This document shows, piece after piece, positions 28,559-44,282 of a DNA stretch of 64,000 nucleotides. The first letter of the stretch is position 1, and every line of letters starts with the position of its first letter. Where the stretch lies: the NCBI RefSeq assembly GCF_000092905.1, contig NC_014098.1:930001-994000 (forward strand), written 5' to 3'. The stretch is from Kyrpidia tusciae DSM 2912. Lineage in GTDB: Bacteria; Bacillota; Bacilli; Kyrpidiales; Kyrpidiaceae. Under the pieces are notes generated by a model. The model worked only from the letters and a program-made list of their open reading frames with translations. It did not search any database and was not told where the DNA came from. Both the position numbers and the translations under genes were made by a program.

Positions 28559-28738
28559 TCCCGGAGGTCTTTCGACACGCCTGGCTGGTGAACGCCGGGA
28601 CCGAGGCCAACGAAATGGCGATTGAGCTGGACCGGCTGGCGACGGAGAAAACGCACATCATCGCCACCCTCGGGTGGGGACACGGCAATACCCCGGACAC
28701 CAGCGTGGCCGGGGTCACTGCAATCTGGAGATTTTTTC
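28559..28738 (+). pseudogene. fragment of a class III aminotransferase
   Basis: The plus-strand frame reads FRHAWLVNAGTEANEMAIEL followed by DRLATEKTHIIATLGWGHGNT. This matches the V-N-S/A-G-x-E-A-N-E-x-A-I segment and following strand-turn-H-G block of class III PLP aminotransferases. Only about 55-60 residues are recognisable: there is no start codon with a ribosome site, no PLP-lysine region, and the frame runs into the antiparallel IclR gene. It looks like a leftover from deletion of a larger gene. The match is by motif recognition, not a database search. Confidence 0.5.
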
Positions 28739-29461
28739 CGATATTTGATGGGCGGCTTTTGTGACGAGGCGTGTAAGAGAACCTGCGGTCTCTCGGCGCA
28801 GCCGGACTTCGGGACCGGCCAGGCTGACGGCTGCGACGACATGGTCATGGGCGTCCCGGATCGGCGCGGCCACGCAATACAACCCCACCTCGTACTCTTC
28901 ATTGTCAATGGCGTAGCCCTGCCGTCGGATCGACCGCATCTCTTCATAAAATCGGTCCGGGTCGCTGATGGTGTTGGGGGTCATCGGCGTCAGTCCTTGG
29001 GTCACGACCTGCCGCACGTACCGGTCGGGTTGAAAGGCAAGCTGAACCTTGCCGAGTCCCGTACAATAAGCGGGCATGCGACCTCCGATCTTTGTCTCGA
29101 TGCGGATCGCCCGTTCCGATCGCAGCTTGGCCAGATAGTAAACTTCCGTCTGTTCCAAAACGGCCAAATGAACGGTCTCCCCGGTGGTTTTCACCAACGA
29201 CTCCATGACAGGAGAAGCCACTTGAAGGAGTTTCGGCAACGGTGAAACGGATCGGCCCCAGTCCAGAACCTTCAGGCCCAAACGGTACTTCTTCCCCGGC
29301 GTTTGTACCAAGACCTTTTGTTTGCAGAGAGACTTGACAATGTGGTGGACCGTGCTCTTGTTCATATTCAGCTGCGAAGTGAGTTCGGAAATTCCCAACT
29401 CTGTTTTCTCGGGAGTAAAACAGTTCAAAATGTTAACGACATGATCGACCGACTTGATCAT
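28715..29461 (-). CDS. IclR-family transcriptional regulator
   Basis: The 248-residue protein has an N-terminal winged helix-turn-helix (SVDHVVNILNCFTPEKTELG, then SELTSQLNMNKSTVHHIVKSL) and a C-terminal IclR effector domain (LGLKVLDWGRS, MPAYCTGLGKVQLAF, RRQGYAIDNEEYEVGLYCVAAPI, AAVSLAGP). ATG 29461 follows GGGGGAG; an in-frame ATG at 29506 lacks one. It is divergent from the aromatic-degradation cluster, 480 nt away, and is a candidate regulator of it. IclR proteins commonly control aromatic pathways, but its effector is unknown and it could also regulate the lost gene whose remnant lies beside it. Confidence 0.88.
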   Translation of the reverse strand: MIKSVDHVVNILNCFTPEKTELGISELTSQLNMNKSTVHHIVKSLCKQKVLVQTPGKKYRLGLKVLDWGRSVSPLPKLLQVASPVMESLVKTTGETVHLAVLEQTEVYYLAKLRSERAIRIETKIGGRMPAYCTGLGKVQLAFQPDRYVRQVVTQGLTPMTPNTISDPDRFYEEMRSIRRQGYAIDNEEYEVGLYCVAAPIRDAHDHVVAAVSLAGPEVRLRRETAGSLTRLVTKAAHQISEKISRLQ

Positions 29462-29506
29462 GGTGCTCCCCCCTAACCATAGATCGACGAGAGAGTCTTG
29501 TCTCAT

Positions 29507-29858
29507 TTCGAGCCGGTGTTTCTACCTTACCTAAATTATTATTGACTCAACCCGAACTTGGTTTCAAGTGGATGGCGTACATTTCAAGCGGCGTACCGAA
29601 AAACGCGTGTGGCATGAAAGAGGGAGGCGCCGGTTGGATGAACCCGCAGGGTTCCGTGCGGTGCCGAAAACACAAAACGGGGTTCGCTATAACGCCCGGT
29701 TTCTGTTGAAGGTGAAGAGGCAGTTTCATTTCGCAGATGGTTTCAAAAGTCGTACATGCACAGATCGTGCAGTCAGCAGGGGCGGGTTTCAAGAAGACCG
29801 AATGGCGGGATAGAGTAAATCGACAAACAAGTACGGCGACATTCGTCGAGATTCGCAC
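29507..29858. other. non-coding region between the IclR gene and the aromatic cluster
   Basis: About 350 nt of lower-GC sequence. Two overlapping short frames have no ribosome sites and no family resemblance. No sigma-54 -24/-12 element was seen. The region presumably contains the divergent IclR promoter and upstream activator sites. Confidence 0.4.
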
Positions 29859-29924
29859 TTACTTTTGATTCACAATCGCTTTACAATCAAAACGCAAACG
29901 AAAAGGTTTGCTGAAATCAAAACG
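29859..29924 (+). promoter_or_regulatory. candidate promoter and operator of the aromatic-degradation operon
   Basis: TTACTT (29859-29864) and TACAAT (29882-29887) are 17 nt apart; the weak -35 suggests activator dependence. Overlapping and following are two direct repeats ATCAAAACG (29886-29894 and 29916-29924), 30 bp apart, flanking the perfect palindrome GCAAAC-N6-GTTTGC (29894-29911). The spacing of about three helical turns fits a regulator site around the transcription start. The next ATG is at 29944. Confidence 0.45.
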
Positions 29925-29943
29925 AAAGGAGATTTTCAGAACA

Positions 29944-30852
29944 ATGGGTATCATGCGACTGGGAAGGGTAGAAGCCCGGGTGCTGGACCTGGAGAAAAGC
30001 ATTGACTACTACTCCAATGTGATCGGGCTGCAACTGATGGCCCGGGAGAACGGCAAAGCGTATTTCAAAGCCTGGGATGAAGAGGATCATCACAGCCTGA
30101 TCCTGACCGAGGCGGATCACGCCGGCTTGGTTCATCTTGCGTTCAAAGTGCGGTACGAACATGAGTTGGACGAGTTTGAAAAATCACTCGAAAACTACGG
30201 GGTCCGGGTGAACCGGGTGTCGAAGGGGACGAGGCTGGCCGAGGGACAAGCGATTCGCTTTGAACTGCCCACGGGGCACCTGGTGGAGTTGTATCACGAG
30301 ATCGAACGGGTGGGCAATGGCCTGAAGCTGAATCCGGATCCGTATCCCGAGAATCTGAAAGGCATTGCGCCTCCCCAGTTGGACCACCTCCTCATCACCG
30401 GAGAGGATGTACAAGGGGCGACGGATCTGCTCATGAAAGTGTTTGATTTCCACATGAGCGAGAGGATTGTCACCCTCGACGGTGAGCAGCTGCTGGCGGT
30501 ATGGTTGTTCAGGACCAACACCCCCCATGACATCGCCATTCTCAAAGGCCCGAACGGAAAGTTGCATCACTTTGCCTTCACATTGGGCAGCTGGAACGAT
30601 ATTTTGCATGCGGCGGACATTCTCGGGAAGAACAATGTGGCCTTCGACGTCACGCCGACCCGGCACGGAATCACCCGGGGCACGACGATCTACTTCTTCG
30701 ACCCGTCCGGGAACCGCAACGAAGTGTTCAGCGGCGGCTACATCCCCTGCGAAGATTTCACGCCGGTGACGTGGACGGAGGATCAGTTGGCGAGAGGGAT
30801 TTTCTATCACATGAGGGAACTGAATGAACGGTTCAGCACGGCGCTGACCTGA
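29944..30852 (+). CDS. dmpB: catechol 2,3-dioxygenase (extradiol, XylE/DmpB type)
   Basis: It opens catechol between C2 and C3 to 2-hydroxymuconate semialdehyde, using Fe(II). The 302-residue protein has two vicinal-oxygen-chelate domains. The iron ligands are visible as His148 (PQLDHLL), His209 (KLHHFAF) and Glu260 (NRNEVFSGG). The spacings of 61 and 51 residues equal those of XylE His153, His214 and Glu265. His246-region and Tyr residues (TPTRHGITRGT) are also kept. ATG 29944 is preceded by AAAGGAG. It is the first gene of the cluster, unlike the Pseudomonas dmp order, where it follows the hydroxylase genes. Confidence 0.95.
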   Translation: MGIMRLGRVEARVLDLEKSIDYYSNVIGLQLMARENGKAYFKAWDEEDHHSLILTEADHAGLVHLAFKVRYEHELDEFEKSLENYGVRVNRVSKGTRLAEGQAIRFELPTGHLVELYHEIERVGNGLKLNPDPYPENLKGIAPPQLDHLLITGEDVQGATDLLMKVFDFHMSERIVTLDGEQLLAVWLFRTNTPHDIAILKGPNGKLHHFAFTLGSWNDILHAADILGKNNVAFDVTPTRHGITRGTTIYFFDPSGNRNEVFSGGYIPCEDFTPVTWTEDQLARGIFYHMRELNERFSTALT

Positions 30853-30894: not shown

Positions 30895-31185
30895 ATGGCC
30901 GATGGGTACCGGATCACTGTCCTCGGGAAAGGACGGGAATTCACCTGCAATCACGATCAGGACGTTTTGGCTGCAGCTGTCGCCCAAGGCGTACGAAGCA
31001 TCAAACGGGGATGTCGGGGCGGAGGATGCGGCTTGTGCAAGGTGCGGGTGGTGGAGGGTTCGTACGAGCTCGGCAAGACCTCCGTGGCGGTGCTCCCCCG
31101 GGATGAAAGGGAACGGGGGTTTGTTCTGACGTGCAAGACCACCCCCAAGTCGGATCTGGTCATCCGTTTGACAGAAGACTCATGA
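30895..31185 (+). CDS. dmpQ: plant-type [2Fe-2S] ferredoxin, XylT/DmpQ-like
   Basis: The 96-residue protein has the cluster motif C-x4-C-x2-C in GCRGGGCGLCKVRV near residue 42 and a fourth cysteine in FVLTCKT near residue 80. In Pseudomonas the neighbouring XylT/DmpQ ferredoxin re-reduces iron in catechol 2,3-dioxygenase inactivated by alkylcatechols. Placement directly after the dioxygenase gene supports that role here, although electron supply to the hydroxylase is also conceivable. Spacing to the neighbours is 42 and 16 nt. Confidence 0.85.
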   Translation: MADGYRITVLGKGREFTCNHDQDVLAAAVAQGVRSIKRGCRGGGCGLCKVRVVEGSYELGKTSVAVLPRDERERGFVLTCKTTPKSDLVIRLTEDS

Positions 31186-31201
31186 GAAGGGGAGGAAGCG
31201 A

Positions 31202-32314
31202 ATGGCGTTTCAGCCCAAAACCATCGAACCGATTCGGAAACAGCCCTGGGATTGGCTGACGAAAAATGAGTATGAAGAGGTCACGGTTCGGGAACAGCCG
31301 TATCTCCACGGACATTACCGATTCAAATACGGTAAAACGGAGTACGACATCTACGACCCGCGGTTCACACGGATCCGGGTCAAAGATTGGGACGCCTTCC
31401 GCGATCCCAAGCGTCTCTGGTACGAGACCTACACCCTGAGCCGCAAAAAAATGGCGGAAGATGTGGAGGGCGTTTTCGACCGGGCCCAGAAGCTGGGAAT
31501 CTACAATTGGGTATCCGATTCTTGGAAGGCATTCGCAAAAGATTTTTATACTCCGCTTCGCCATTACGAATATGCGGGCGCAGTCCAGCTGCAACACGTG
31601 GTGCGTTATGCCATGGGCTGTCCAATCGAGCAGACGGCGACCTACACCGCTTTCGACAAACAGGGACGCGCTCAGTGGCTAAGCGTATGGGCTCTTGAGG
31701 TGGTCGGCGACGAAGGCCTGCCCGCTTTGGAACGGGGCCGGGATCTTTGGGTGAATGACAAAGCTTACGACGGGCTGCGTCGATATATGGAGCACGTCCT
31801 GGTCGCCGAGGACTGGGCGGAAGCGTTGGTCGCATTGCATCTGACCCTGGGACCGCTTCTGGACAGGATCTTGTACCAAGAGATGAACGAGGTGGCCTTG
31901 GCACACCGGGATGCGGTGATCTCCGAGCTGGCGTTGGTGTGCGCGGAACAGGTCCAGTGGCAGGAACAATGGACGGAGACGCTGTTCAAGATGGTGGCCG
32001 AGGATCCGACCCTAAGTCGCTGGGAGTATCTCAAGGCGCTCGGTTATGAAAATTGGCCGGGAGATTACCGGTGGGGGAAGACACTGAGCGATCCTCGGTT
32101 AACTCCTGAGGAGGAAAAAACGAACCAAGAAATTCTGGAATCCTGGGTCAATCAGTGGTTGCCCAGGGCGGTAGAGGCTGTGAAATCACTTCAATCCCTC
32201 ATGGACCGGCACGGCATCGCGTTCTCGGTCGAACAATCGGTCGACCGGAATCTTCAGGAAAACGTTTATCCAAGACTGCAACGAATGGGTATTCTCGCAC
32301 ACGCGCCTGTGTGA
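31202..32314 (+). CDS. dmpL: phenol hydroxylase beta subunit (DmpL/P1 type)
   Basis: The 370-residue helical protein belongs to the ferritin-like beta subunits of bacterial multicomponent monooxygenases, lacking the full iron ligand set. The N-terminal KTIEPIRKQPWDWLTKNEYEEVTV region, YDPRFTRIRVKDWDAFRDPKRLWYETY and the Gln-rich C-terminal helices follow the DmpL/TmoE pattern. It forms the (alpha-beta-gamma)2 hydroxylase with the two genes downstream. It is about 40 residues longer than DmpL of Pseudomonas. It follows the ferredoxin gene by 16 nt with an AGGGGAGGAAG site. Confidence 0.9.
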   Translation: MAFQPKTIEPIRKQPWDWLTKNEYEEVTVREQPYLHGHYRFKYGKTEYDIYDPRFTRIRVKDWDAFRDPKRLWYETYTLSRKKMAEDVEGVFDRAQKLGIYNWVSDSWKAFAKDFYTPLRHYEYAGAVQLQHVVRYAMGCPIEQTATYTAFDKQGRAQWLSVWALEVVGDEGLPALERGRDLWVNDKAYDGLRRYMEHVLVAEDWAEALVALHLTLGPLLDRILYQEMNEVALAHRDAVISELALVCAEQVQWQEQWTETLFKMVAEDPTLSRWEYLKALGYENWPGDYRWGKTLSDPRLTPEEEKTNQEILESWVNQWLPRAVEAVKSLQSLMDRHGIAFSVEQSVDRNLQENVYPRLQRMGILAHAPV

Positions 32315-32332
32315 AAAAGGGAGGGTTCGGGG

Positions 32333-32632
32333 ATGACTGTGGACCAGGGCCAATATGTGGGGATGGATTTGGACAAGAACGGCGGCCCGGTGGTGGATGC
32401 CATTGTCGAAGCCATTCAGGCGGACAATCCGGGGGTTGAATTGGTTGACTTCAATGTCTATGTCAAAGTGAAATCGCCGATGAAATTGCTGTTGCGCCGG
32501 GAGAAAGTGGAGGAGGCTCTCGGTAGGGATTGGTCGATGGACGAGTTGCATGTGTTCATGTCTTCTTATTTCGGATTCATCGAAGAGTGGGACGAGGATC
32601 ATCTCGTCATTCGATGGAACCGCGACAATTGA
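32333..32632 (+). CDS. dmpM: phenol hydroxylase effector/regulatory protein (DmpM/MmoB type)
   Basis: The 99-residue cofactor-free protein matches the MmoB/DmpM family: it starts VGMDLDKNGGPVVDAIVEAI, continues NPGVELVDFNVYVKVKSP and ends with the R-W-x-M-D-E-L-segment (DWSMDELHVFMSSYFG). Such proteins dock on the hydroxylase and allow productive oxygen activation. The order beta-effector-alpha-gamma is that of dmpLMNO. Confidence 0.92.
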   Translation: MTVDQGQYVGMDLDKNGGPVVDAIVEAIQADNPGVELVDFNVYVKVKSPMKLLLRREKVEEALGRDWSMDELHVFMSSYFGFIEEWDEDHLVIRWNRDN

Positions 32633-32669
32633 TGGATCAAAGCGAGACGGATCCGAAGGAGGAATCGAG

Positions 32670-34178
32670 ATGGCGAAACTTTCGGCGGGTGCCAGGTACA
32701 AGGCGCTGACCAGGGATTTGATGTGGGACCCGAAAGACGTGGATTTTAAGCAGATTTATCCGTTGGTGGAAGCCGAGGGCATCCGCATCAAAGATCCGAA
32801 GCGGTGGGAAGACCCCTTTCGGATGACCTTCAATCAATATGTCAAGATTCAAGCGGAAAAGGAACACCTGCACCACGCGATTCGAAGTGCTTTCGAAGCG
32901 AACCACGGACACGCCCGAATCGTGGACAGTCGGTGGTTTGAAGGGGTCAAAGCGTTTGCGGTGGCCGTCCAGCCGGCGGAGTACTCGGCTCATCGGCTCA
33001 TGGCGTATATCGGGCGCAACATTCCGATCGAGGCGATTCGTTTCGCGACCTTCAATCAAGCGGTGGATGAGTTGCGGCATGCCCAAATTGAAATTAAACA
33101 TTACGCTCACATGAGCAAGTACTACGACGGTCTGCACGCTTATGCAAAAACCAATGAGAACCTGTGGTTTAACACGGTGCCGAAATCCTTCTTTGACGAC
33201 GCCCTCACCTCGGGTCCTTTCGAAGCGCTGATTGCCATTGCGTTCTCCTTTGAATACGTATTTACGAACATTTTGTTCCTGCCTTTCGCCGCGTCGGCTG
33301 CGGCGGTGGGGGATGAGCATTTCGCATCGGTGGGCAAGAGCGTGCAATCCGACGAGTCGCGCCATATGGCCCTGGGGATGGCGGCCTTGAAAATGTTGCT
33401 GGAAGAAGATGATCGCAATATCCCCATCGTTCAGCGGTGGCTGGACAAATGGTATTGGCGTTGTTATCGAATCTTTTCCGTGATCTCGACCTTGGTGGAT
33501 TATTATCCTCGGGTGCGGGCCATCTCCTGGAAGAAAGCCTTTGAAATGTATGTGGAAGATCAGGTTCTGAACGGGTTGTTTAAAGACCTGTACAAGTACG
33601 GGATCCGGCCGCCGCGGAATTTCGAGGATACGATCAAAGAGAAGGAGCACTATTCCCACGCGACCATGCGCATTCTCGATCATTACAAGCATGCGAACTA
33701 CTTCCGCGGGTTCCGGTTACAGCCGGACGATTACGAATGGCTGTCCAATGAGTATCCCAATACGTTTGAACGCTATTATGCTCCGTTCTTCCGAAAAATG
33801 GACGATCATGTGATGGCGGTGGCCGCTCCCGGTCTGCCGGCGGTTTGCGCGGTCTGTCAAGTTCCCTGCGAATTCCCGGATCCCGATCATCCGGATCGGA
33901 TGTGGACCCAATATGCCGAGTACAACGGCAAAACGCACATGTTTTGTTCCCCCGGCTGCAGGGATATCTTCCTCGAAGAACCGGAAAAATACATGCAGTG
34001 GTGGTGGCCGGCGGAATCGTATCTGTCCGGAGAGTTTGGGCCGACCCTGTCGGACATGTTCGAGTACTTCGGGTTCACCCCGGAGGAAGCCAACGAGCAC
34101 TACAGTTCTCGGGACTATCACCGGTGGATCCGCTATCGGGAACAGTTGGGCCTGGATAAAACGTTTCAAGTGGTGTAG
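32670..34178 (+). CDS. dmpN: phenol hydroxylase alpha subunit, diiron oxygenase (DmpN type)
   Basis: The 502-residue catalytic subunit inserts one oxygen atom into the aromatic ring. The carboxylate-bridged diiron ligands are visible as Glu104 (PAEYSAH), Glu134 and His137 (DELRHAQ), Glu195 (SFEYVF), Glu229 and His232 (DESRHMA), almost exactly the toluene/phenol monooxygenase numbering. A Cys-containing YHS-like segment (CAVCQVPCEF to FCSPGCRDIF, about 393-430) follows. ATG 32670 is six bases after AGGAGGAA. Phenol is the likely substrate from operon context; benzene, toluene or cresols are not excluded. Confidence 0.95.
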   Translation: MAKLSAGARYKALTRDLMWDPKDVDFKQIYPLVEAEGIRIKDPKRWEDPFRMTFNQYVKIQAEKEHLHHAIRSAFEANHGHARIVDSRWFEGVKAFAVAVQPAEYSAHRLMAYIGRNIPIEAIRFATFNQAVDELRHAQIEIKHYAHMSKYYDGLHAYAKTNENLWFNTVPKSFFDDALTSGPFEALIAIAFSFEYVFTNILFLPFAASAAAVGDEHFASVGKSVQSDESRHMALGMAALKMLLEEDDRNIPIVQRWLDKWYWRCYRIFSVISTLVDYYPRVRAISWKKAFEMYVEDQVLNGLFKDLYKYGIRPPRNFEDTIKEKEHYSHATMRILDHYKHANYFRGFRLQPDDYEWLSNEYPNTFERYYAPFFRKMDDHVMAVAAPGLPAVCAVCQVPCEFPDPDHPDRMWTQYAEYNGKTHMFCSPGCRDIFLEEPEKYMQWWWPAESYLSGEFGPTLSDMFEYFGFTPEEANEHYSSRDYHRWIRYREQLGLDKTFQVV

Positions 34179-34193
34179 AGAGGAGCGATCGGC

Positions 34194-34439
34194 GTGTTCG
34201 TCTGGGTCAGAGTGACGTTTGACGACCGGTTTCTTTGTCACCAGGGGCTGCCTGTACAGCCGGAGATGAAGGGAAAGGAATTGCTAGATGCCATAACCAA
34301 GATGTGGGAGCTGCCGGGGGACCGGGCGTATCGAGTGGTGCGCGTTCATCCAAGCGGAATGAAGGAGATCGAATTAGAACGCACCCTTCAGGAGAATGGG
34401 ATTCGGGACGGGGACCCTGTGGATCTTGAGGTGGCCTGA
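34194..34439 (+). CDS. dmpO: hydroxylase gamma subunit, short ubiquitin-like (DmpO position, TmoB-like size)
   Basis: The 81-residue protein occupies the DmpO position after the alpha subunit but is much shorter than Pseudomonas DmpO (about 119 residues). Its pattern of short strands, one helix (GKELLDAITKMW) and the ending TLQENGIRDGDPVDLEVA resembles the ubiquitin-like TmoB gamma subunits of toluene 4-monooxygenase and YukD-type proteins. Start is GTG 34194 after GAGGAG. Structural role in the hydroxylase is inferred from position. The gene symbol is positional. Confidence 0.7.
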   Translation: MFVWVRVTFDDRFLCHQGLPVQPEMKGKELLDAITKMWELPGDRAYRVVRVHPSGMKEIELERTLQENGIRDGDPVDLEVA

Positions 34440-34453
34440 TGGAGGGAACGCAC

Positions 34454-35305
34454 ATGATGGGAGATCCCGGGTCCGTTCAAGAAGGACAATACGTCGATGC
34501 TGGCGGTGTTCGCACGCATTTCCATGTGCAGGGAGAAGGCCCGCGTGTTGTGCTGATTCACGGCTCGGGGCCCGGGGTGTCGGCGTGGGCCAACTGGGGA
34601 AGGATTCTTCCCCGGTTGGCTGCTCGGTTTCGGGTATACGCCCTGGATGTGGTGGGCTTCGGCAAAACGGAGCGCCCAGAGGGGATCCGATACCATCTCG
34701 AAACGTGGGTTGAACATGTGAAAAACTTTATGGACGCGGTGGATGCCGTACCGGCCCTTGTGGTGGGCAATTCCATGGGTGGAGCGGTGGCCCTGCGGCT
34801 GGCGGCGACCCATGCAGAATATGTCCGTGGGCTCGTGTTGATGGGGTCGGTTGGTGTACCCTTCCGGATCACCGAAGGATTGGATGCCGTTTGGGGTTAC
34901 CGGGCTCGAGGAATTGAAGAGATGGAGCGGATTCTCGATATTTTTTCGTTCAATAAAGCTCTACTGACTCCGGAATTGGCTAAACTACGTTATGAAGCCA
35001 GTCTGGAACCTGAGTCCCGCTCGGCATATGAACAGATGTTTCCCGAACCGCGGCAGCGCCATGTGGACGCGATGGTGACGCCGGACGACGCAGTTCGCAA
35101 AATCGACCGGCCGGCTCTGGTGATTCACGGACGTGAGGATCGGGTGATTCCGGTGGACAATTCGTACCGACTGTTCCATCTGTTGCCCAACGCGGAGCTT
35201 CATGTCTTCGGCCGTTGCGGCCATTGGACCCAGATCGAGCGCCGGGAGGAATTCTGCGAGCTGGTGGAGAGTTTTTTCGAACGGGTTTCTCGGTTCGAAG
35301 ACTAG
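34454..35305 (+). CDS. dmpD: 2-hydroxymuconate semialdehyde hydrolase
   Basis: It hydrolyses the ring-cleavage product to 2-hydroxypenta-2,4-dienoate and formate (or another acid from substituted catechols). The 283-residue alpha/beta hydrolase shows the oxyanion segment HGSGPGVSAWANW, the nucleophile Ser107 in GNSMGG, an Asp near 228 in HGREDRVIP and His near 257 in FGRCGHWTQIE. The ATG at 34454 sits seven bases from GGAGGG; an ATG at 34439 overlaps the previous stop. It supplies the hydrolytic branch, complementing dmpC-I-H downstream. Confidence 0.9.
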   Translation: MMGDPGSVQEGQYVDAGGVRTHFHVQGEGPRVVLIHGSGPGVSAWANWGRILPRLAARFRVYALDVVGFGKTERPEGIRYHLETWVEHVKNFMDAVDAVPALVVGNSMGGAVALRLAATHAEYVRGLVLMGSVGVPFRITEGLDAVWGYRARGIEEMERILDIFSFNKALLTPELAKLRYEASLEPESRSAYEQMFPEPRQRHVDAMVTPDDAVRKIDRPALVIHGREDRVIPVDNSYRLFHLLPNAELHVFGRCGHWTQIERREEFCELVESFFERVSRFED

Positions 35306-35350: not shown

Positions 35351-37240
35351 ATGAAGGCCCGTCAGTTGTTGCTCGATCAACTGCTGGAGATCAACCCCCG
35401 AACGGGCATTATTACCCTCAATGGAAGCCGCATGGCTTTGATGGAGACCTCGGCTCTCGGTCTATTGCGGAGAGATCTGGTGGCCACCTTGGGCATGGAT
35501 CGGGCAAAAGGGTTTCTCATGCGGTACGGTTACGCATGCGGGCAGAGTGACGCCAAGGCGGTACGATCGATGTTCGAGTGGGATTCTCCCGATGAGTTAT
35601 TTTTGGCGGGGCCTCAGTTGCATACCGTGGAAGGTATTGTGACGGTGGAACCGTTGGAGCTGAATGTGGATTGGGAGTCCGGTTCAATGGTGTTCACCGG
35701 GGAATGGCGCCACTCCTATGAGGCGGATGAACATCTGCACCATTTCGGCGTGAGTGAAGAGCCGGTTTGCTGGACGTTGGTGGGTTATGCCAGCGGATAT
35801 CTGACGGAGATTTTCGGCCATCGGGTTTTGGTTTATGAACCTGAATGTCGTGGACAAGGGGATGCGCGGTGTGTGTACACAGCGAAAAGTTGGAATCTGT
35901 GTACGGATGCCGAGCGTCTCCTCGGCCGCTACTACGAAGCGGAATCGTTGGCCACAGAATTAGACGCGGCTTACCAACGGATCTCGCTTCTGAATCAGAC
36001 CTGGAGGGAGTCGGTGGCTCTTCACCGAAGGTTAAGTGACCTGATGTTCGAGGGAAAAACCCTGGATGAAATCGTTCGGGTCATCGGCGACGCCCTGCAT
36101 CGCAGCGTCTTTGTTGAGAATCAGAAGGGCCGTTTGTTGTCGGAGTCGGTCATGAAACTCGACCATCGGAATGCCTATCGAAATTGGAAGGCTCGGTCCG
36201 GCTCGGCGGCCCAAATGGGAAAAACGATTTCAGCCGGGAAAACCGAATGTTGGGAGTACGACGCGACCTATGTAGAGGTCTTGGTGATCGGAACCTCAAC
36301 CCATTCTTTTGGACATCTTTGCCTGATCGGCGAAGAACCTCTTGCTGAAGAGGAGTTGATTCTGGCGGAGCGTGCAAGCAACATCTGTGCCATACAGCTG
36401 TTTCAAGAACGGCTTATCGTTCAAGAAGCTCGTCTGCATCTGGCCGATTTCCTCGACGAAGTGATCAGCGGTCGATTTGATGAGCAGACACTGATTCGCC
36501 GCGCCAGGCTGCTGGATATTGATCCCGAGGAACCGCGGCGCATGATGGCGTTCCGTGTTGAGCCCGAGGAAGAACTGTTGGAAGTGTGTGAGTACGTTCG
36601 GCAAAAATATCCGGGGTTTGAAGCATTCCCAAAAAACGGATATTTGATCGGCCTGTACTCTTTGTCGCAGCTGCGCAGGTGGGGGGATGGGGTGGATGAG
36701 TTCCTCCTATCGGTGTTGAACGCGTGCGAGAAAAAGTTTAAGGTCGTCCGAATCTTGGCCGGCTGCGGTCGGCTGGCGGAATCGGTGGGAAACATCGGAT
36801 ACAGTTATGACGATGCCGTGAGTATTGTTGATTTTCTCGAAGTTCTTGAAAATAGCGGGGTATCCCTTCGCTCGCGGTACGGTGTATACGAACAATTCCA
36901 AACATTGCTGCTGATTGTGAAGGCGGCCCCTCATAAGGAACTGGCCGATTTTTACCGGTCGGTCCTGGGTCGATTGGAAGAGTACGATCGAACGCACCAA
37001 GGAGAACTGTTGCCCACCTTGCGGGCTTATTTAGAACACACCGGAAACATTCGAAAAGTCGCCGGTGCCCTGTATGTATCGGAAACCGGTTTGCGATATC
37101 GAATTCGAAAAATCGAGGAACTGTGCCAGGTCAACCTGGATGACGGGGGGGATCGGTTCAAAATTCACTTGGCGTTGCAAATTCATGACAGTTTGTGTAC
37201 CCGAAAGGGCTCCGTGACGCGTCGGAAAACAGACAGATGA
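35351..37240 (+). CDS. aromatic-responsive regulator: XylR_N-V4R sensor with PucR-type HTH
   Basis: The 629-residue protein has an N-terminal half like the sensor part of DmpR/XylR: SALGLLRRDLVATLGMDRAKGFLMRYGYACG (its G-x-L-R-R-D-L and R-x-G-Y-A cores) and a V4R domain ending EPECRGQGDARCVYTAKSW. A variable GAF-like middle region follows, then a C-terminal PucR-type helix-turn-helix (LEHTGNIRKVAGALYVSETG, then LRYRIRKIEELC, about residues 570-605). The sigma-54 AAA+ domain of DmpR is absent. It probably senses phenols and activates this operon. ATG 35351 is used; TTG 35312 is in frame but lies too close to GGAGGG. Confidence 0.85.
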   Translation: MKARQLLLDQLLEINPRTGIITLNGSRMALMETSALGLLRRDLVATLGMDRAKGFLMRYGYACGQSDAKAVRSMFEWDSPDELFLAGPQLHTVEGIVTVEPLELNVDWESGSMVFTGEWRHSYEADEHLHHFGVSEEPVCWTLVGYASGYLTEIFGHRVLVYEPECRGQGDARCVYTAKSWNLCTDAERLLGRYYEAESLATELDAAYQRISLLNQTWRESVALHRRLSDLMFEGKTLDEIVRVIGDALHRSVFVENQKGRLLSESVMKLDHRNAYRNWKARSGSAAQMGKTISAGKTECWEYDATYVEVLVIGTSTHSFGHLCLIGEEPLAEEELILAERASNICAIQLFQERLIVQEARLHLADFLDEVISGRFDEQTLIRRARLLDIDPEEPRRMMAFRVEPEEELLEVCEYVRQKYPGFEAFPKNGYLIGLYSLSQLRRWGDGVDEFLLSVLNACEKKFKVVRILAGCGRLAESVGNIGYSYDDAVSIVDFLEVLENSGVSLRSRYGVYEQFQTLLLIVKAAPHKELADFYRSVLGRLEEYDRTHQGELLPTLRAYLEHTGNIRKVAGALYVSETGLRYRIRKIEELCQVNLDDGGDRFKIHLALQIHDSLCTRKGSVTRRKTDR

Positions 37241-37298
37241 AGTTCGGAGGCCCGTGTTGTGATCGAATGGAACCTGAATGGACGAAAGGGTGTTCGGT

Positions 37299-38330
37299 GT
37301 GAGTATTACTCAGCAACCCACGTTAACATACAAGATCCGCGTGGAGCCGCGAGGGGTTGAAATCAGTTGCAAAGAAGGCCAAACGGTCCTGGATGCGGTG
37401 CTGCGCAGCGGTCTGGCCGTTCCCTACGGCTGCAAACACGGCAACTGTTCTGCCTGTAAAGCTCGGGTCCTGGAAGGAGATTACCGGTTGATGGATCGGG
37501 TCTCCGAGTTCGCCTTGATGGGATTCGAGCGGGACGAGGGGTATATCTTGATGTGCAGCACGTTGCCGGAGAGCGATTTGGTCGTGGAGGTCGAAGAGGA
37601 AGACGAGGAGCCGGGGGTGCAGTTGTTCCCGGTTTACGATTTCGAAGCGGTGGTTCAAGACAATACGGCCTGCACTCATGACATTCACCGTATCCGCCTG
37701 GACCTGATCGAACCCGGGGATATCCCCTATGCGGCCGGGCAATTCTTCGAGTTTCGGATTCCGGAGTCGGAAGAAACGCGGGCGTACTCGGTGGCGACCC
37801 CGTACCGTCCGGGTGAACCGCTGGAGTTTCACGTCAGAAGGGTACCGGGGGGTGTGGGCTCGAATTACATGTGCGGCCTACAGCCGGGAGAGCGGGTGAT
37901 CGGTTCGGGACCGTATGGGAAAATGCAACTGCGGGATCGCAACAAAAATTTGCTCTTTGTCGCCGGCGGTTCCGGAATGGCCCCGATCAAAGGCTTGTTG
38001 GAAGAGTTGTTCTCGACTTCTTACGATTATGAAGCGTGGTTTTTCTACGGCGCGAGGTCCGTCCGAGATCTGTACCTGGCCGATTATTGGCGAGAGATGG
38101 AGCAGAAGCACGCCAACTTTCATTTTATTCCAGCTCTGTCCGAACGTGATCCGGCAGAGCCGTGGGACGGGGAAGAGGGATATATTGCCGATGTGGTGGC
38201 GCGGCAATTTGAACGGTTTGACGGCATGGACGCCTACCTGTGCGGTCCCCCGATGCTGATTCAGACCACGTTGAAAGTGTTGTACAAGGGTGGATTGCGC
38301 AGTTCGAACATTTTTTATGACGAGTTTTGA
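37299..38330 (+). CDS. dmpP: phenol hydroxylase reductase (DmpP type)
   Basis: It passes electrons from NAD(P)H through FAD and a [2Fe-2S] cluster to the hydroxylase. The 343-residue protein has a ferredoxin domain (C-x4-C-x2-C in YGCKHGNCSACKARV, last Cys in ILMCSTLP), an FAD domain with the R-x-Y-S motif (TRAYSVATPY, about 155) and an NAD domain with FVAGGSGMAPIKGLLEEL and the end CGPPMLI. GTG 37299 follows AAAGGGTG; ATG 37278 is in frame with a weak site. It is separated from dmpO by the hydrolase and regulator genes, unlike the contiguous dmpKLMNOP order. Confidence 0.94.
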   Translation: MSITQQPTLTYKIRVEPRGVEISCKEGQTVLDAVLRSGLAVPYGCKHGNCSACKARVLEGDYRLMDRVSEFALMGFERDEGYILMCSTLPESDLVVEVEEEDEEPGVQLFPVYDFEAVVQDNTACTHDIHRIRLDLIEPGDIPYAAGQFFEFRIPESEETRAYSVATPYRPGEPLEFHVRRVPGGVGSNYMCGLQPGERVIGSGPYGKMQLRDRNKNLLFVAGGSGMAPIKGLLEELFSTSYDYEAWFFYGARSVRDLYLADYWREMEQKHANFHFIPALSERDPAEPWDGEEGYIADVVARQFERFDGMDAYLCGPPMLIQTTLKVLYKGGLRSSNIFYDEF

Positions 38331-38385: not shown

Positions 38386-38427
38386 GGAATCATCCACTTC
38401 AATTTGGGAACAAGAGGGAGCGAGTGT

Positions 38428-39864
38428 ATGAAGCTGGTACAGCATTTTATCGACGGACGCTTTGTGGAATCGGAGAACGGCCGGCGGTTTGTGAATGTCA
38501 ATCCGGCGACCGGAGACGTCCTCGGGGAGGTGGCGGAAGGAGGGAAGCCCGAGATCGACCGGGCGGTGGCGGCGGCCCGGCGGGCTTTCGGCGAATGGGG
38601 GCGGATGCCCGTGGCGAAGCGATCGGCGATTCTGAATCGCATCGCCGACCTGATCGAGGAACGGAGCGAAGAGTTGGCCCGGTTGGAGACGCTGGATACA
38701 GGCAAACCTCTCAGTTTGTCCAGGACGTTGGATATTCCGCGGGCGGCGTACAATTTCAGGTTTTTTGCCGCTTTTGTCAAAGGCCTTGGGACTGAAGCGT
38801 TCCAGATGGATGATGTGGCGCTGAATTACGTGTTGCGCCGTCCGGTGGGGGTGGCGGGGCTCATTTCACCGTGGAACCTGCCCCTTTTGCTTCTGACCTG
38901 GAAGGTGGCGCCGTGTTTGGCCGCGGGGAACACATGTGTGATCAAGCCGGCGGAACTGACGCCCATGACGGCGACAAAATTGGCGGAGATCTGCCAGGAG
39001 GCCGGGCTGCCGGACGGCGTGCTCAACGTGGTGCACGGGTTTGGGCCCGATGCGGCGGGATCGGCGCTGACCGAGCATCCGGACGTGAACCTGATCTCTT
39101 TGACCGGAGAGACCACCACCGGCAAAGCGGTGATGCGGGCGGCCGCCACGAACCTCAAGCGGGTGGCCTTTGAACTGGGGGGTAAAAACCCGAACATCAT
39201 TTTTGCCGATGCGGATTTGGACGACGCCGTGGAGACGACGGTCCGGTCGAGTTTCTCGAACCAAGGCGAGGTGTGCCTGTGCGGATCCCGGGTGTATGTG
39301 GAGCGGCCGATTTACGATGAGTTTTTGCGGCGGATGGTGGAGAAAGCCAAAGGTCTGGTTGTGGGCGATCCCTTTGACGAGAAGACCAACGTCGGCGCAC
39401 TGATCAGCGAAGAGCACCTGCACCGGGTGGAAGGGTTTATCGAGCGGGCGGTGAAAGAGGGTGGCCGGATCCTGGTGGGCGGCCGGCGGCCGGAGCACAT
39501 GACCCGGGGGTACTACTTGGAGCCGACGATCATTGTGGACGTCGACCGGCGGTGCGAGATCGTGCAACAAGAGGTGTTCGGCCCGGTCATCACGGTCCAG
39601 CCCTTCGACAGCGAGGAAGAGGTGATCGAGCAGGCCAACGATACCCATTATGGCTTGAGCGCCACGATTTGGACCACGAACCTCAAGCGGGCCCATCGGG
39701 TGGCGGCGCGGCTGGAGGCGGGGATCATCTGGATCAACACGTGGTTTCTACGGGATCTGCGAACGCCCTTCGGGGGGATGAAACAGAGCGGCATCGGCCG
39801 GGAGGGCGGCGTGCACAGTTTTGAGTTTTTCACGGAACTGACCAATGTGTGCGTGAAGTTGTGA
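38428..39864 (+). CDS. dmpC: 2-hydroxymuconate semialdehyde dehydrogenase
   Basis: It oxidises the ring-cleavage semialdehyde with NAD to 2-hydroxymuconate (4-oxalocrotonate). The 478-residue ALDH has the ISPWNLPLLLLTWKVAPCLAAGN block split by its PWN motif, the general-base Glu in FELGGKNPNIIF near residue 250, and the catalytic Cys in NQGEVCLCGSRVYVERP near residue 287. The ending ...FFTELTNVCVKL is typical of HMSD enzymes. ATG 38428 follows GAGGGAG; TTG 38404 is in frame upstream. Confidence 0.94.
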   Translation: MKLVQHFIDGRFVESENGRRFVNVNPATGDVLGEVAEGGKPEIDRAVAAARRAFGEWGRMPVAKRSAILNRIADLIEERSEELARLETLDTGKPLSLSRTLDIPRAAYNFRFFAAFVKGLGTEAFQMDDVALNYVLRRPVGVAGLISPWNLPLLLLTWKVAPCLAAGNTCVIKPAELTPMTATKLAEICQEAGLPDGVLNVVHGFGPDAAGSALTEHPDVNLISLTGETTTGKAVMRAAATNLKRVAFELGGKNPNIIFADADLDDAVETTVRSSFSNQGEVCLCGSRVYVERPIYDEFLRRMVEKAKGLVVGDPFDEKTNVGALISEEHLHRVEGFIERAVKEGGRILVGGRRPEHMTRGYYLEPTIIVDVDRRCEIVQQEVFGPVITVQPFDSEEEVIEQANDTHYGLSATIWTTNLKRAHRVAARLEAGIIWINTWFLRDLRTPFGGMKQSGIGREGGVHSFEFFTELTNVCVKL

Positions 39865-39879
39865 GGAGGGAGGGTCAGA

Positions 39880-40683
39880 ATGGCAGTGGGGCCGGACGTG
39901 TTGGCGGCGTGGTCAGAACGGTTGTTTCGGGCCGAGAGAGAGCGCCGGCCGGTGGAGCCGTTGACGGATCAAGAACCTGGGCTTACGGTCGAGGATGCTT
40001 ATCAAATTCAGTTGGATGTGGTGCAGCGAAAGCTGGAGTTGGGAGACGAGGTGGTCGGGCACAAGATCGGCCTGACCAGCCGGCCAATGCAGGAAATGTT
40101 CGGAGTCGGCGAGCCCGATTACGGCCATCTGTTTCGCTCGATGGCCTACGCGTCCGGGGCGGTGATCGGCTATCCGCTCATGCAGCCCCGGGTGGAAGCG
40201 GAGATTGCCTTTGTCTTGAACAAGGATCTGAAAGGGCCCGGCCTGGGGATTCACGATGTCCTGCGGGCCACAGAGTACGTTGTGCCGGCCATTGAGGTGG
40301 TGGACAGCCGGATCGAGAATTGGCGGATCAAACTGCCGGATACGGTGGCGGACAACGCGTCGTCCGGATGTTTTGTGCTCGGGGATCGCCCAACGCGAGT
40401 TGAGGACGTGGATCTTCAGGTTGTGGGTATGGCCCTCTATGAGGACGGGGAAGTGGTGCAGACCGGAGCCGGGGCTGCGGTACTGGGGCATCCGGCTTTG
40501 GGCGTGGCTTGGCTGGCGAACAAATTATCGGAGTTTGGGACGGTGCTGCGAGCGGGCCATGTGGTCCTGTCGGGGGCCGTGAGCGCGGCGGTGAATGCCA
40601 AGCCCGGATCGAGGTACGTGGTGAATTTTGGACGGTTGGGTCGGGTGGAAGCGGTATTTCCGGAACGGGAGGGAGAGGCGTGA
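39880..40683 (+). CDS. dmpE: 2-oxopent-4-enoate hydratase
   Basis: It adds water to 2-hydroxypenta-2,4-dienoate to give 4-hydroxy-2-oxovalerate. The 267-residue protein belongs to the hydratase/decarboxylase family: [38 protein letters not shown] (metal-binding Glu pair), [23 protein letters not shown] and the [10 protein letters not shown] motif. The same blocks occur in dmpH downstream, its paralogue. It follows dmpC by 15 nt with GAGGAGGGAGG. Confidence 0.92.
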
Positions 40684-41561
40684 AGCTGAAGGCGGCCATC
40701 GTAGGGTCGGGGAACATTGGGACAGACTTGATGTTTAAGCTTTTGCGCAGTGAATGGGTGGAACCGCGTTGGATGGTCGGGATCGATCCGGAGTCCGAGG
40801 GGCTGCGTCGGGCGAAGGAGCTGGGCTTGGAGACGTCGGCGGAGGGGCTCAAGGCGGTGCTGGATCAAGGGGTTCGGCCGGACCTGGTGTTTGACGCCAC
40901 CAGTGCCAAAGCCCACGTGCGCCATGCCAAATTGTTGAGAGAGGCGGGCATTCAAGCGATCGATTTGACGCCGGCCGCCAGGGGCCCGTATGTCATCGCT
41001 GCGGTGAATCTGGGAGAGCACCTGGATGCGCCCAACGTGAACATGGTGACCTGCGGAGGTCAGGCGACGGTACCGATGGTGTATGCCGTCAGCCGGGTGG
41101 TGGGGGTGTCCTACGCCGAGATCGTGGCCACCATCGCCAGCAAGAGCGCCGGACCGGGGACGCGGCAAAACATCGACGAGTTTACAGAAACCACGGCCAA
41201 GGCGCTGGAGGTCATCGGCGGAGCCCGAAAAGGGAAGGCGATCATCATTCTGAATCCGGCGGAGCCTCCGATTCTCATGCGGGACACGATTTATTGTTTG
41301 ATCGACGAGACCGGGGACGAGGTTTATGAGCGGATCGACCAGTCCATCCGTGCGATGGTGGCGCATGTCCAGGAGTTTGTTCCGGGGTATCGCCTGAACC
41401 GGGACCCGATTTATCGCGACAACCTTGTGAGCATCTCCATTGAGGTCGAAGGACTGGGGGATTTTCTGCCCGTGTACGCCGGGAATCTCGATATCATGAC
41501 GGCGGCCGCCACCAAAGTGGGCGAAGAATTTGCCAAAAGTCGCCTGGCGATTCAGCGTTGA
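40680..41561 (+). CDS. dmpF: acetaldehyde dehydrogenase (acylating)
   Basis: It converts acetaldehyde, CoA and NAD to acetyl-CoA, accepting acetaldehyde through a channel from the DmpG aldolase. The 293-residue protein has the Rossmann motif [18 protein letters not shown], the catalytic-Cys region [18 protein letters not shown] near residue 125, and [19 protein letters not shown] near 155. The GTG start shares GTGA with the dmpE stop and is preceded by GGGAGG, so the genes are coupled. Confidence 0.94.
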
Positions 41562-41578
41562 CGGATAGGAGGGAAACC

Positions 41579-42616
41579 ATGGAAAAGCGGACGATTCGAG
41601 TGACGGATGTGACCCTTCGGGACGGGATGCACGCGGTGCGCCATCAGTTCAGTGCCGAAGACGCCCGGGTGATCTCCCGGGCGTTGGATGAGACGGGAGT
41701 GGCGATCATTGAAGCGACGCATGGAGACGGTTTGGGCGGCAGTTCGGTCCAGTACGGTTTTTCCAAAGAGACGGAAGAAGACTACCTGCGGGCGGTGTGC
41801 GAGACGGTCAAGCGCAGCAAAGTCGCGGCCCTGCTTCTGCCGGGGATCGGAACCGTTGAAGACATGAAGCGAGCCGCGGAGTATGGAATCCGCGTGATTC
41901 GGGTGGCGACCCACTGCACCGAGGCGGACATTTCAGAGCAGCATATTGGGGAAGCGAGGAAAATGGGGTTGGAGACGGTGGGATTCCTGATGATGGCCCA
42001 CATGGTGCCGGCCCAAACCCTGGTGGAAGAAGCGAAAAAGATGGCCTCCTACGGGGCGCAGACCGTGTACGTGGTGGACTCGGCCGGCGCCATGCTCATG
42101 GACGAAGTGCGGCAAAAAGTGGCGGCTCTGCGGGAAGCGCTGCCGGAGGAAGTGGAGGTGGGGTTCCACGCCCACAATAACCTCGGGGTGTCGGTGGCCA
42201 ATTCCATTGCCGCCGTAGAGGCCGGGGCGACCCGGATTGACGCCAGCCTGGCGGGTCTTGGGGCCGGGGCGGGGAACACGCCTTTGGAGGTGTTTGCGGC
42301 GGCGGCCGAAAAGGCGGGCATCGAGACCGGGGTGAATCTTTACGCGGCAATGGATGCGGCGGAGGATGTGGTGCGTCCCCGCATGACGCGACCGGTGCAG
42401 ACCGACCGGGTGAGTTTGACCATGGGGTATGCAGGCGTGTATTCGAGCTTTTTGCTGCACGCTTTCCGAGCGGCGGAGCAGTTTGGCGTGGATGCTCGGG
42501 ACATCCTGGTGGAGTTGGGCAAACGGAAGGTGGTCGGCGGCCAGGAGGACATGATCGTCGACGTGGCGGTGGAGCTGGCGCGCCAGAAGAAAGCGGCGGT
42601 GTCCGCCGGATCGTGA
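41579..42616 (+). CDS. dmpG: 4-hydroxy-2-oxovalerate aldolase
   Basis: It splits 4-hydroxy-2-oxovalerate to pyruvate and acetaldehyde, in complex with DmpF. The 345-residue TIM-barrel protein begins VTDVTLRDGMHAVRHQF (metal-ligand Asp and catalytic-region His), has THGDGLGGSS, the metal HxH motif in GFHAHNNLGVSVANS near residue 200, and the HMGL-like communication-domain C-terminus. ATG 41579 follows TAGGAGGG. The dmpF and dmpG gene pair is adjacent as in all known meta-cleavage clusters. Confidence 0.95.
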   Translation: MEKRTIRVTDVTLRDGMHAVRHQFSAEDARVISRALDETGVAIIEATHGDGLGGSSVQYGFSKETEEDYLRAVCETVKRSKVAALLLPGIGTVEDMKRAAEYGIRVIRVATHCTEADISEQHIGEARKMGLETVGFLMMAHMVPAQTLVEEAKKMASYGAQTVYVVDSAGAMLMDEVRQKVAALREALPEEVEVGFHAHNNLGVSVANSIAAVEAGATRIDASLAGLGAGAGNTPLEVFAAAAEKAGIETGVNLYAAMDAAEDVVRPRMTRPVQTDRVSLTMGYAGVYSSFLLHAFRAAEQFGVDARDILVELGKRKVVGGQEDMIVDVAVELARQKKAAVSAGS

Positions 42617-42728
42617 GTGCCTCGGGGATCTCCCCGGGGTTGCGGTACCGAGCGAACGGTTCGGGGGTGCCGGGTAGTGTCGCGCCGTCCGCGGCATAGC
42701 AAATGCGGGTGAGGGAGGGATCTGTGGC

Positions 42729-43502
42729 GTGGATCTTGAGTCATTGGCCCGGCGGGTGAGTGAGCATCAGCGTAAAGGTCTTGCAATGAAGAAATTGACA
42801 TTGGAATATCCGGAACTGACGGTGGAGCAGGCGTATCGCATTCAGGCTCTTTCTGTGGAGCGGTCCGTGGCGGAAGGGGATCGGTTCGTCGGGTGGAAGA
42901 TGGGGCTGACCAGTCGGGCGAAGCAGGTATCGGTGGGGGTGGATGAGCCGATTTATGGGCGGCTGCTGGCTTCCATGGAACTTCGCGAGTCCCTGCTTTC
43001 GGTCGGCGGCTTGGTCCACCCCCGCGTGGAACCGGAGTTGGCTTTCGTGCTGAAAGAAGGACTCCACGGGGAGTCGGTGACGCCCCGGGAGGTTTGGCGG
43101 GCGACGGAATGCGTGGTTCCGGCGTTGGAAGTGATCGATAGCCGATACGAGAATTTTTCGTTCACTCTGGTGGATGTCGTGGCGGACAATGCCTCATCGG
43201 CCCGGTTTTACCTGGGAGAACAGGGGTTTTCTCCGTATGGGGCGAGGTGGGATGAGGTCGGGGTCGTGATGCGCAAGAACGGTGAGGTGGTGCAGACCGG
43301 GGCCGGGGCGGCGGTGTTGGGCCATCCGGTGCGATCGGTGATGATGCTGACGCGTATGCTCGCCCGGGAAGGGTTGGGACTGGAGCCCGGGATGGTGGTT
43401 TTGACCGGGGGGATCACCGAAGCGGTCCCGGTGCAACCGGGGGATGCGGTGGAGGTGTCCTACGAGGGGCTCGGGAGCTTGGAGCTGAGGGTGGGCCGGT
43501 AG
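42729..43502 (+). CDS. dmpH: 4-oxalocrotonate decarboxylase
   Basis: It decarboxylates 2-oxo-3-hexenedioate to 2-hydroxypenta-2,4-dienoate, joining the oxidative branch to dmpE. The 257-residue protein shares the hydratase/decarboxylase fold with dmpE: GWKMGLTSRAKQVSVGVDEPIYG, HPRVEPELAFVL, DVVADNASSARFYLG and [11 protein letters not shown]. Assignment as decarboxylase rather than a second hydratase rests on the M-K-K-L-T-L-E-Y-type N-terminus, K-M-G-L-T-S-R-A-K-Q and position before the tautomerase. GTG 42729 follows GGGAGGG. Confidence 0.88.
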   Translation: MDLESLARRVSEHQRKGLAMKKLTLEYPELTVEQAYRIQALSVERSVAEGDRFVGWKMGLTSRAKQVSVGVDEPIYGRLLASMELRESLLSVGGLVHPRVEPELAFVLKEGLHGESVTPREVWRATECVVPALEVIDSRYENFSFTLVDVVADNASSARFYLGEQGFSPYGARWDEVGVVMRKNGEVVQTGAGAAVLGHPVRSVMMLTRMLAREGLGLEPGMVVLTGGITEAVPVQPGDAVEVSYEGLGSLELRVGR

Positions 43503-43592
43503 CCTTCGGTTCCGGGTTGCGGATGCGTTTATTCTGAACATGCGGGCATCGGTGAGAGGTTTCAGGTTGTCACGAGAAACGAGGTGAACTCG

Positions 43593-43811
43593 ATGCCTCT
43601 GGTGCAGCTGCACATTCTGGAAGGCCGGTCGGCCGAGGTGAAAAAGAGGGCGATCGAAGAGGTGACCGAGGCTCTTCACCGCAGCCTTGGAGCGCCCCGG
43701 GAGAATATTCGGGTTGTGATTTACGAGATCCCCAAGTCCCATTGGGCGGTGGGTGGGGTCACGATGGAAGAGAAACAACCGGAACATGTCACCACTTCGG
43801 GCGGTTCGTAA
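43593..43811 (+). CDS. dmpI: 4-oxalocrotonate tautomerase
   Basis: It converts 2-hydroxymuconate to 2-oxo-3-hexenedioate. The 72-residue protein begins MPLVQLHILEGRSAEVKKRA; removal of the initiator Met would expose the catalytic Pro1. Arg residues near positions 12 and 40 fit the family. The ATG at 43593 rather than the in-frame codon at 43584 is required for Pro1. The C-terminus (EKQPEHVTTSGGS) is about ten residues longer than in classical 62-residue 4-OT. Confidence 0.92.
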   Translation: MPLVQLHILEGRSAEVKKRAIEEVTEALHRSLGAPRENIRVVIYEIPKSHWAVGGVTMEEKQPEHVTTSGGS

Positions 43812-43835
43812 TCTGTGGATGGAGGTGAAAGGGAG

Positions 43836-44282
43836 ATGAGCGAGACCAAAGCGGTTCGGCAGACCTATGCTCTCACACACACCGCAGCTTTTGCGATGGT
43901 GGAAGCCGCCGTCTCCAAAGCCCAGGAGATCGGGGTTCGGCTGAATGTGGCGGTGGCGGATGCCGGGGGAAATCTTTTAGCGTTCTTACGCATGGACGGA
44001 GCGCCGCTTTTGAGCGGAAAGATTGCCCAGGACAAGGCGTATACCGCCGCGGCATTCGGCAAGGCGACGGGGGACTGGTATGCCTTTATCAAGGATGACC
44101 CGGCCCTTTTGCACGGGATTGTTCACACGGACCGGTTGGTGATCTTCGGCGGCGGCCTGCCCATCTATTGTGGAGACCATCTGCTTGGCGGGATCGGCTG
44201 CTCGGGGGGATCCGCCGAGGAGGACACCCTTTGTGCCGCGGCAGGACTGGCGGCGCTGGAGAGCCACTTGCACGGGCAATAA
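43836..44282 (+). CDS. GlcG/HbpS (DUF336) family protein
   Basis: The 148-residue protein has the family pattern VAVADAGGNLLAFLRMDGAPLLS, IAQDKAYTAAAFGK and a Gly-rich end (GGLPIYCGDHLLGGIGCSGG). DUF336 proteins are found beside many aromatic and short-chain acid pathways; HbpS binds heme or degradation products, while a catalytic role has not been settled. It is the last gene before the cluster terminator and is co-transcribed with dmpI (24-nt gap, AAAGGGAG site). Confidence 0.85.
   Translation: MSETKAVRQTYALTHTAAFAMVEAAVSKAQEIGVRLNVAVADAGGNLLAFLRMDGAPLLSGKIAQDKAYTAAAFGKATGDWYAFIKDDPALLHGIVHTDRLVIFGGGLPIYCGDHLLGGIGCSGGSAEEDTLCAAAGLAALESHLHGQ

Follow-up and report, generated by a model that had tools for sequence, protein, structure and literature searches.

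Textbook accounts of aromatic sensing take the sensor of DmpR as their model, and it is commonly used as a part of biosensors; it is described together with sigma-54 and an AAA+ motor. The question raised by the present locus is how such a sensor may act when it is joined to a PucR-type output, in a protein whose gene lies among the phenol-degradation genes themselves. We addressed it for the regulator P0001 of the soil bacterium Kyrpidia tusciae DSM 2912, using a stretch of 64,000 nucleotides (NC_014098.1, positions 930,001 to 994,000), referred to below as the window; coordinates are those of the window unless another locus or contig is named, and the features are collected in Table 1.

The regulator gene is located inside an aromatic-degradation operon, on the same strand, 46 nt after the hydrolase gene and 38 nt before the gene of the hydroxylase reductase. 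Judged by its gene content, this is a genuine phenol operon, as a preliminary description of the window had held: its alpha subunit matches the phenol hydroxylase PHN (E 5e-122), and it encodes a catechol 2,3-dioxygenase and a full meta pathway. The gap between the ferredoxin gene and that of hydroxylase subunit L (31185-31202) is just 17 nt, which leaves no room for a DmpK-type gene directly ahead of subunit L.

Table 1. Operon, regulator domains and predicted promoter in the window
Feature	Position	Strand	Basis or remark
Predicted operator core GCACTT	29855..29860	+	-39..-34, position counted with the -10 hexamer
Predicted sigma-A -10 hexamer TACAAT	29882..29887	+	exactly 21 nt past the core
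Catechol 2,3-dioxygenase, first operon gene	29944..30852	+	ATG 29944; TIGR03211 above cut-off
2Fe-2S ferredoxin, XylT/Fdx type	30895..31185	+	
Multicomponent phenol hydroxylase, L-O	31202..34439	+	L 31202-32314, M 32333-32632, N 32670-34178
Phenol hydroxylase O	about 34194-34439	+	position only, no Pfam match
2-Hydroxymuconic semialdehyde hydrolase-type alpha/beta hydrolase	34439..35305	+	
PheR-type regulator gene P0001, XylR_N-V4R-GAF-GGDEF_2-HTH_30, 629 aa	35351..37240	+	ORF, Pfam, alignment, model
XylR_N part of aromatic sensor, residues 8-107	35372..35671	+	holds His91 (= MopR H106 / DmpR His100)
V4R part of sensor, residues 120-176	35708..35878	+	holds the zinc ligands
Long signalling helix, residues 200-233	35948..36049	+	AlphaFold2 model; at DmpR B-linker position
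GAF-like domain, residues about 234-333	36050..36349	+	model comparison; CodY-GAF fold, missed by Pfam
GGDEF-like domain, residues 374-491	36470..36823	+	Pfam, model
PucR C-terminal helix-turn-helix, residues 553-611	37007..37183	+	Pfam; MabR C-terminal fragment 9f80
Phenol hydroxylase reductase (P component)	37278..38330	+	
Meta pathway, start of stretch: HMS dehydrogenase, FAH-type hydratase/decarboxylase pair, acetaldehyde dehydrogenase	38404..44282	+	
Meta pathway, same stretch: 4-hydroxy-2-oxovalerate aldolase, tautomerase, HbpS-like protein	38404..44282	+	

Domain layout and sensor pocket

The family alignment backs the start of the regulator gene: the opening MKA is a conserved feature, with K2 never varying in 14 close relatives. 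There is an in-frame TTG 13 codons ahead of this start. Pfam recognises XylR_N (E 9e-33) and V4R (E 6e-13) in the N-terminal half, GGDEF_2 further on (E 2e-10; 41.2 bits against a cut-off of 24.5) and HTH_30 at the C-terminus (E 1e-19; 70.2 bits against a cut-off of 27), while no match to Sigma54_activat (PF00158) or to any other AAA+ family was obtained, HTH_8 stayed under its cut-off, and a motif search of the protein found no G[AS]FTG. The preliminary description was therefore right about both ends of the protein and about the missing sigma-54 AAA+ domain, but it had overlooked the middle, which contains the GAF-like and GGDEF-like domains.

An AlphaFold2 model built from 58 related sequences reached a mean pLDDT of 88.5 and a pTM of 0.59, the latter meaning that the relative placement of the domains is not to be trusted. 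By sequence, the first 200 residues find their best matches among solved structures in the sensors of DmpR/CapR, MopR and PoxR (E 1e-36 to 1e-37), and structural comparison bears out the DmpR-type assignment, the modelled sensor superposing over 196 residues on PoxR-phenol (Z 28.0, rmsd 1.9) and also matching DmpR-phenol. In the model, residues 214-361 match the GAF domain of CodY (Z about 15, VIA-align), and for residues 359-613 the matches are 3onq (Z about 12) and 9f80 (Z 12.6), the latter being the PucR-type C-terminal fragment of MabR. The modelled layout is thus sensor, long helix, GAF, long helix, GGDEF-like domain and helix-turn-helix.

P0001 shares with DmpR, PoxR, MopR and CapR the sensor fold (Z 25-28), the phenol-contacting His and Trp, the zinc site and, as its predicted target, a phenol hydroxylase operon; it differs from them in having no AAA+ ATPase, GAFTGA motif or sigma-54 promoter, in the type of its helix-turn-helix and in its additional GAF and GGDEF-like domains. 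The dmp and xyl regulators are, moreover, reported as separate units, whereas the P0001 gene lies within its operon. The GGDEF-like domain and HTH_30 are held in common with PucR/CdaR-type proteins such as PucR and AdeR of B. subtilis and MabR of M. tuberculosis. The N-terminal domains of PucR and AdeR are not known to be of the XylR_N/V4R kind. That of MabR is globin-like, again unlike XylR_N/V4R (PMC11617747). The same XylR_N-V4R sensor, with its phenol and zinc residues kept, is also found in two Chloroflexota proteins (L164, 110-2458; L188, 9938-13981), which differ in carrying a multi-GAF/PAS output instead of a DNA-binding one, that of L164 ending in a histidine kinase (HisKA_3/HATPase).

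In DmpR the phenol hydroxyl sits between His100 and Trp128 with zinc alongside, and His100 is conserved among phenol sensors, its place being taken by Tyr in the toluene/xylene sensor XylR (PMC7264223). Alignment gives His91 and Trp119 as the corresponding contacts in P0001, and Cys140, Glu163, Cys166 and Cys174 as zinc ligands. Of 83 PucR-coupled sensors, 82 have His91, and all 83 have Trp119 and the four zinc ligands. The lining of the pocket is less conservative: Val161 stands where sigma-54-type sensors have Tyr or Phe, and Gly117 where they often have Phe, so that the ligand may be other than plain phenol and the preference of P0001 may be shifted from that of DmpR. This bears on a reading in which the main ligand is another aromatic compound or an intermediate of the pathway, and in which the GAF domain supplies a second input or even the dominant one. 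The differences in pocket lining speak for it, as do the association of the family with chemically different hydroxylases and the resemblance of the GAF domain to the ligand-binding GAF of CodY; since there is next to no variation in the two contacts to the phenol hydroxyl or in the zinc site, and the monooxygenase of this operon is a phenol hydroxylase, we regard it as rather unlikely.

Spread of the family and its relation to sigma-54

XylR_N is present in 43 of 399 Bacilli genomes. When the full-length XylR_N proteins from these 43 genomes and from three plasmid records were scanned, all 60 consisted of XylR_N, V4R, GGDEF_2 and HTH_30, and none had an AAA+ domain; HTH_30 is likewise the C-terminal domain of five further proteins, encoded in genomes of Bacillota other than Bacilli, and in two of these GAF domains can be recognised. 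The suggestion that the arrangement is peculiar to this lineage or recent is not supported, the layout being Bacillota-wide. When 56 sensors were placed in a tree, the 12 coupled to sigma-54 grouped in a single clade (100/100) apart from the PucR-coupled ones; the tree is unrooted and so does not give the order of the outputs, and its sigma-54 sample of 12 is small. A recent local fusion as the origin of the protein was rejected, given the uniform layout in Bacilli and the separate clade of sigma-54-coupled sensors. The idea that the output was exchanged because sigma-54 had been lost was likewise rejected, rpoN being present here and in 39 of 40 carrier genomes. The K. tusciae genome (3,384,766 bases) encodes RpoN and about 17 sigma-54 activators, and perfect -24/-12 sites occur near activator genes outside the window (for example C1:280208, 299686, 1126078, 1135372 and 2492941), so that its sigma-54 system looks functional.

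Upstream of the operon, in the intergenic region 29400-29945, no sigma-54 -24/-12 site was found with up to 2 mismatches, in agreement with the preliminary description. Within the regulator gene itself, in antisense orientation (36377-36392, minus strand), lies TGGCACAGATGTTGCT, a perfect -24/-12 consensus match that is probably due to chance and was set aside. The NCBIfam MobR model covers residues 7-216 of P0001 and hence the sensor half only, which could be taken to mean that the protein is a conventional DmpR/XylR sigma-54 activator with its AAA+ domain missed or truncated. With 60 relatives that have no AAA+ domain and all have HTH_30 and GGDEF_2, a confident model and no -24/-12 site at the operon, this reading is so improbable that it can practically be dismissed.

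Among 81 regulator loci, an HpaB-type flavin hydroxylase was found in 46, a diiron phenol hydroxylase in 10 and a PheA1-type flavin hydroxylase in 7, so that 63 contain one of three unrelated hydroxylase types; a ring-cleavage dioxygenase lies nearby in 66, all these counts being lower bounds (contig ends, missed calls) in which close relatives are counted separately.

A relative has been in the literature since 2008. PheR of Geobacillus stearothermophilus DSM 6285, reported by Omokoko et al. as a 'novel regulator', is encoded by 642 codons within a meta-cleavage operon for phenol; its sub-domains do not resemble those of DmpR/XylR, and its co-transcription with the operon was demonstrated by RT-PCR. 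The text of that paper mentions neither PucR nor V4R and reports no functional test (PMC2590616). The counterpart in Parageobacillus thermoglucosidasius (L042, 13926-15854), where gene order and lengths match the published phe operon, contains all four of the Pfam domains seen in P0001. It differs in being about 23-26% identical to P0001, in its conserved upstream DNA and in the hydroxylase, which is a two-component flavin enzyme there and a diiron one here. The earlier statement that no characterised phenol activator with this layout was known needs the qualification that PheR was on record, if only as an unexplained sequence. Our literature search, with subscription papers outside its reach, found no PheR-type family member tested biochemically and no paper naming both PucR and V4R. 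P0001 is accordingly a member of a widespread, functionally undescribed family in Bacillota, a sigma-54-free variant of the DmpR kind; what was known earlier is PheR as a sequence, and what is new here is the promoter element described below.

A predicted promoter element with fixed spacing

Alignment of the DNA upstream of the operon with that of same-genus and same-family relatives revealed a block of conservation that directly precedes a TA(C/A)AAT hexamer, and the promoters of HpaB-type hydroxylases that lie beside such regulators in other genera have (G/A)CAGTT or GCACTT ahead of the -10. In 22 of 26 HpaB-type promoters exactly 21 nt separate RCASTT from the -10, the next-best distance being found in 5 and shuffled sequences giving at most 4. 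The same spacing is seen in three of four phenol-hydroxylase promoters, including 29855-29887, and also in the fourth (L109), where the core reads GCTCTT. Within the HpaB loci, and with G also allowed at the third core position, hydroxylase genes are preceded by the element in 22 of 26 cases, flavin reductase genes in 5 of 25 and unassigned genes in 5 of 260.

The 3.38-Mb genome contains a single match to the strict form GCASTT-N21-TANAAT, at 29855-29887, just upstream of the operon; a reversed control pattern likewise has one genome-wide match, so that rarity alone proves little and the position of the match is the informative part. A slightly relaxed pattern has three matches in G021, a genome of the same genus, and two of them are the two phenol-operon promoters of that genome. 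The element is present in 5 of 7 comparable genomes with the regulator, and it is absent from three near-complete genomes (G286, G268, G366) whose hydroxylase is 75-86% identical to those under the regulator and which have no XylR_N gene. This comparison, a small control of three close genomes without the regulator, points to an element that tracks the regulator rather than the enzyme. Some relatives (L129, G393 and the clade-2 promoters looked at) do not have it.

A position weight matrix derived from the HpaB promoters ranks the 29855-29887 site first in the window, yet column-permuted matrices score comparably elsewhere, and when the matrix was limited to the core plus the -10 the site was no longer ranked first. 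The full-length matrix as proof of the site is weakened by these controls, and the case was accordingly moved to exact spacing and pattern counts.

At the operon promoter the -35 is poor (TTACTT) and is touched by the core, and across the conserved promoters the -35 is mostly poor and the -10 good. A generic sigma-70 scan reported no promoter at 29855-29887 because it demands a better -35. The preliminary description had tied the sensor to sigma-A promoters in this lineage; the sigma-A part of that proposal is supported, with a conserved -10 and a fixed upstream element overlapping the proposed region 29859-29924, and it is the restriction to this lineage that is not supported. A core at -39 to -34 that touches a poor -35 has the geometry of an activator beside sigma-A. 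The overlap of site and promoter would also suit a reading in which the same sensor and site serve a repressor, or a dual regulator, released by phenol, and PucR-family proteins have been reported in both roles, MabR as a repressor and as a possible activator (PMC11617747). We consider this unlikely, since a poor -35 with a good -10 is the usual mark of activator dependence and a repressor encoded inside the operon would limit its own supply.

The element might, alternatively, be bound by another factor, with P0001 acting elsewhere. A candidate is the IclR-type regulator encoded divergently from the operon at 28715-29461, a neighbour that also adjoins the operon in G021, and the operator-like palindrome GCAAAC-N6-GTTTGC (29894-29911), just downstream of the predicted -10, is a possible site for it; the palindrome is nearly kept in L109 and not in L043. 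The element itself, however, recurs in HpaB-type operons across many genera and goes together with the XylR_N regulator, being missing where a close hydroxylase is found without that regulator; it is also present at the L046 promoter, where no recognisable IclR neighbour was found in the stretch read. Binding by such a factor is therefore decidedly improbable.

Other upstream sequences were noted in the course of these comparisons. CcpA cre-like sequences (TGAAAGCGCTTTCA) are found some 15-25 nt past the -10 at the HpaB-type promoters of L111, L115, L118, L119, L140 and their relatives, which suggests, at the level of sequence, catabolite repression. Operons of the Geobacillus-PheR clade have a different upstream element around TTCGTACGAAA, with a downstream TATATTCAGAAAAT (L042 upstream of 10201, L143 upstream of 3212 and L146 upstream of 7053), a candidate operator for that clade. 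The HpaB-type hydroxylases found without an XylR_N gene (loci L205, L206 and L208 of G286, G268 and G366) have different upstream DNA again.

Proposed mode of action

We think it likely that P0001 is a one-component, phenol-responsive activator of sigma-A transcription, of the PheR type, which is bound at -39 to -34 and raises expression of its own operon. Residues 1-200 would bind phenol or a methylphenol in the manner of DmpR, the hydroxyl lying between His91 and Trp119 beside a structural zinc, and binding by the dimeric sensor would shift the long helix 200-233. The signal would then be relayed through the CodY-like GAF domain and the second helix to the GGDEF-like domain and the PucR-type helix-turn-helix, and the protein, presumably as a dimer, would bind the RCASTT core just upstream of and touching the -35, assisting sigma-A RNA polymerase where the promoter has a good -10 and a poor -35. 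Homology to DmpR and to PucR-type proteins is our ground for inferring phenol binding, the relay and the binding of the helix-turn-helix to the core; we favour activation over repression because of the good -10, the mostly poor -35 and the location of the gene within the operon. Neither sigma-54 nor an ATPase would be used, and activation would raise the level of P0001 itself, its gene being part of the operon.

On balance we also lean towards a broader statement: DmpR-type phenol sensing would be hard-wired to sigma-A throughout Bacillota, with no sigma-54 and no ATP hydrolysis, and one clade would keep RCASTT-N21-(-10) across the exchange of diiron and HpaB-type hydroxylases. If this is true, Bacillota use the DmpR pocket with another relay to drive ordinary sigma-A promoters, which would show how far the sensor module can be moved between proteins and would provide a sigma-54-free phenol switch made of one protein with a predicted operator. 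For the PheR family, whose mode of regulation was left open in 2008, this would supply both an architecture and a mechanism, together with a predicted binding site in the case of this clade.
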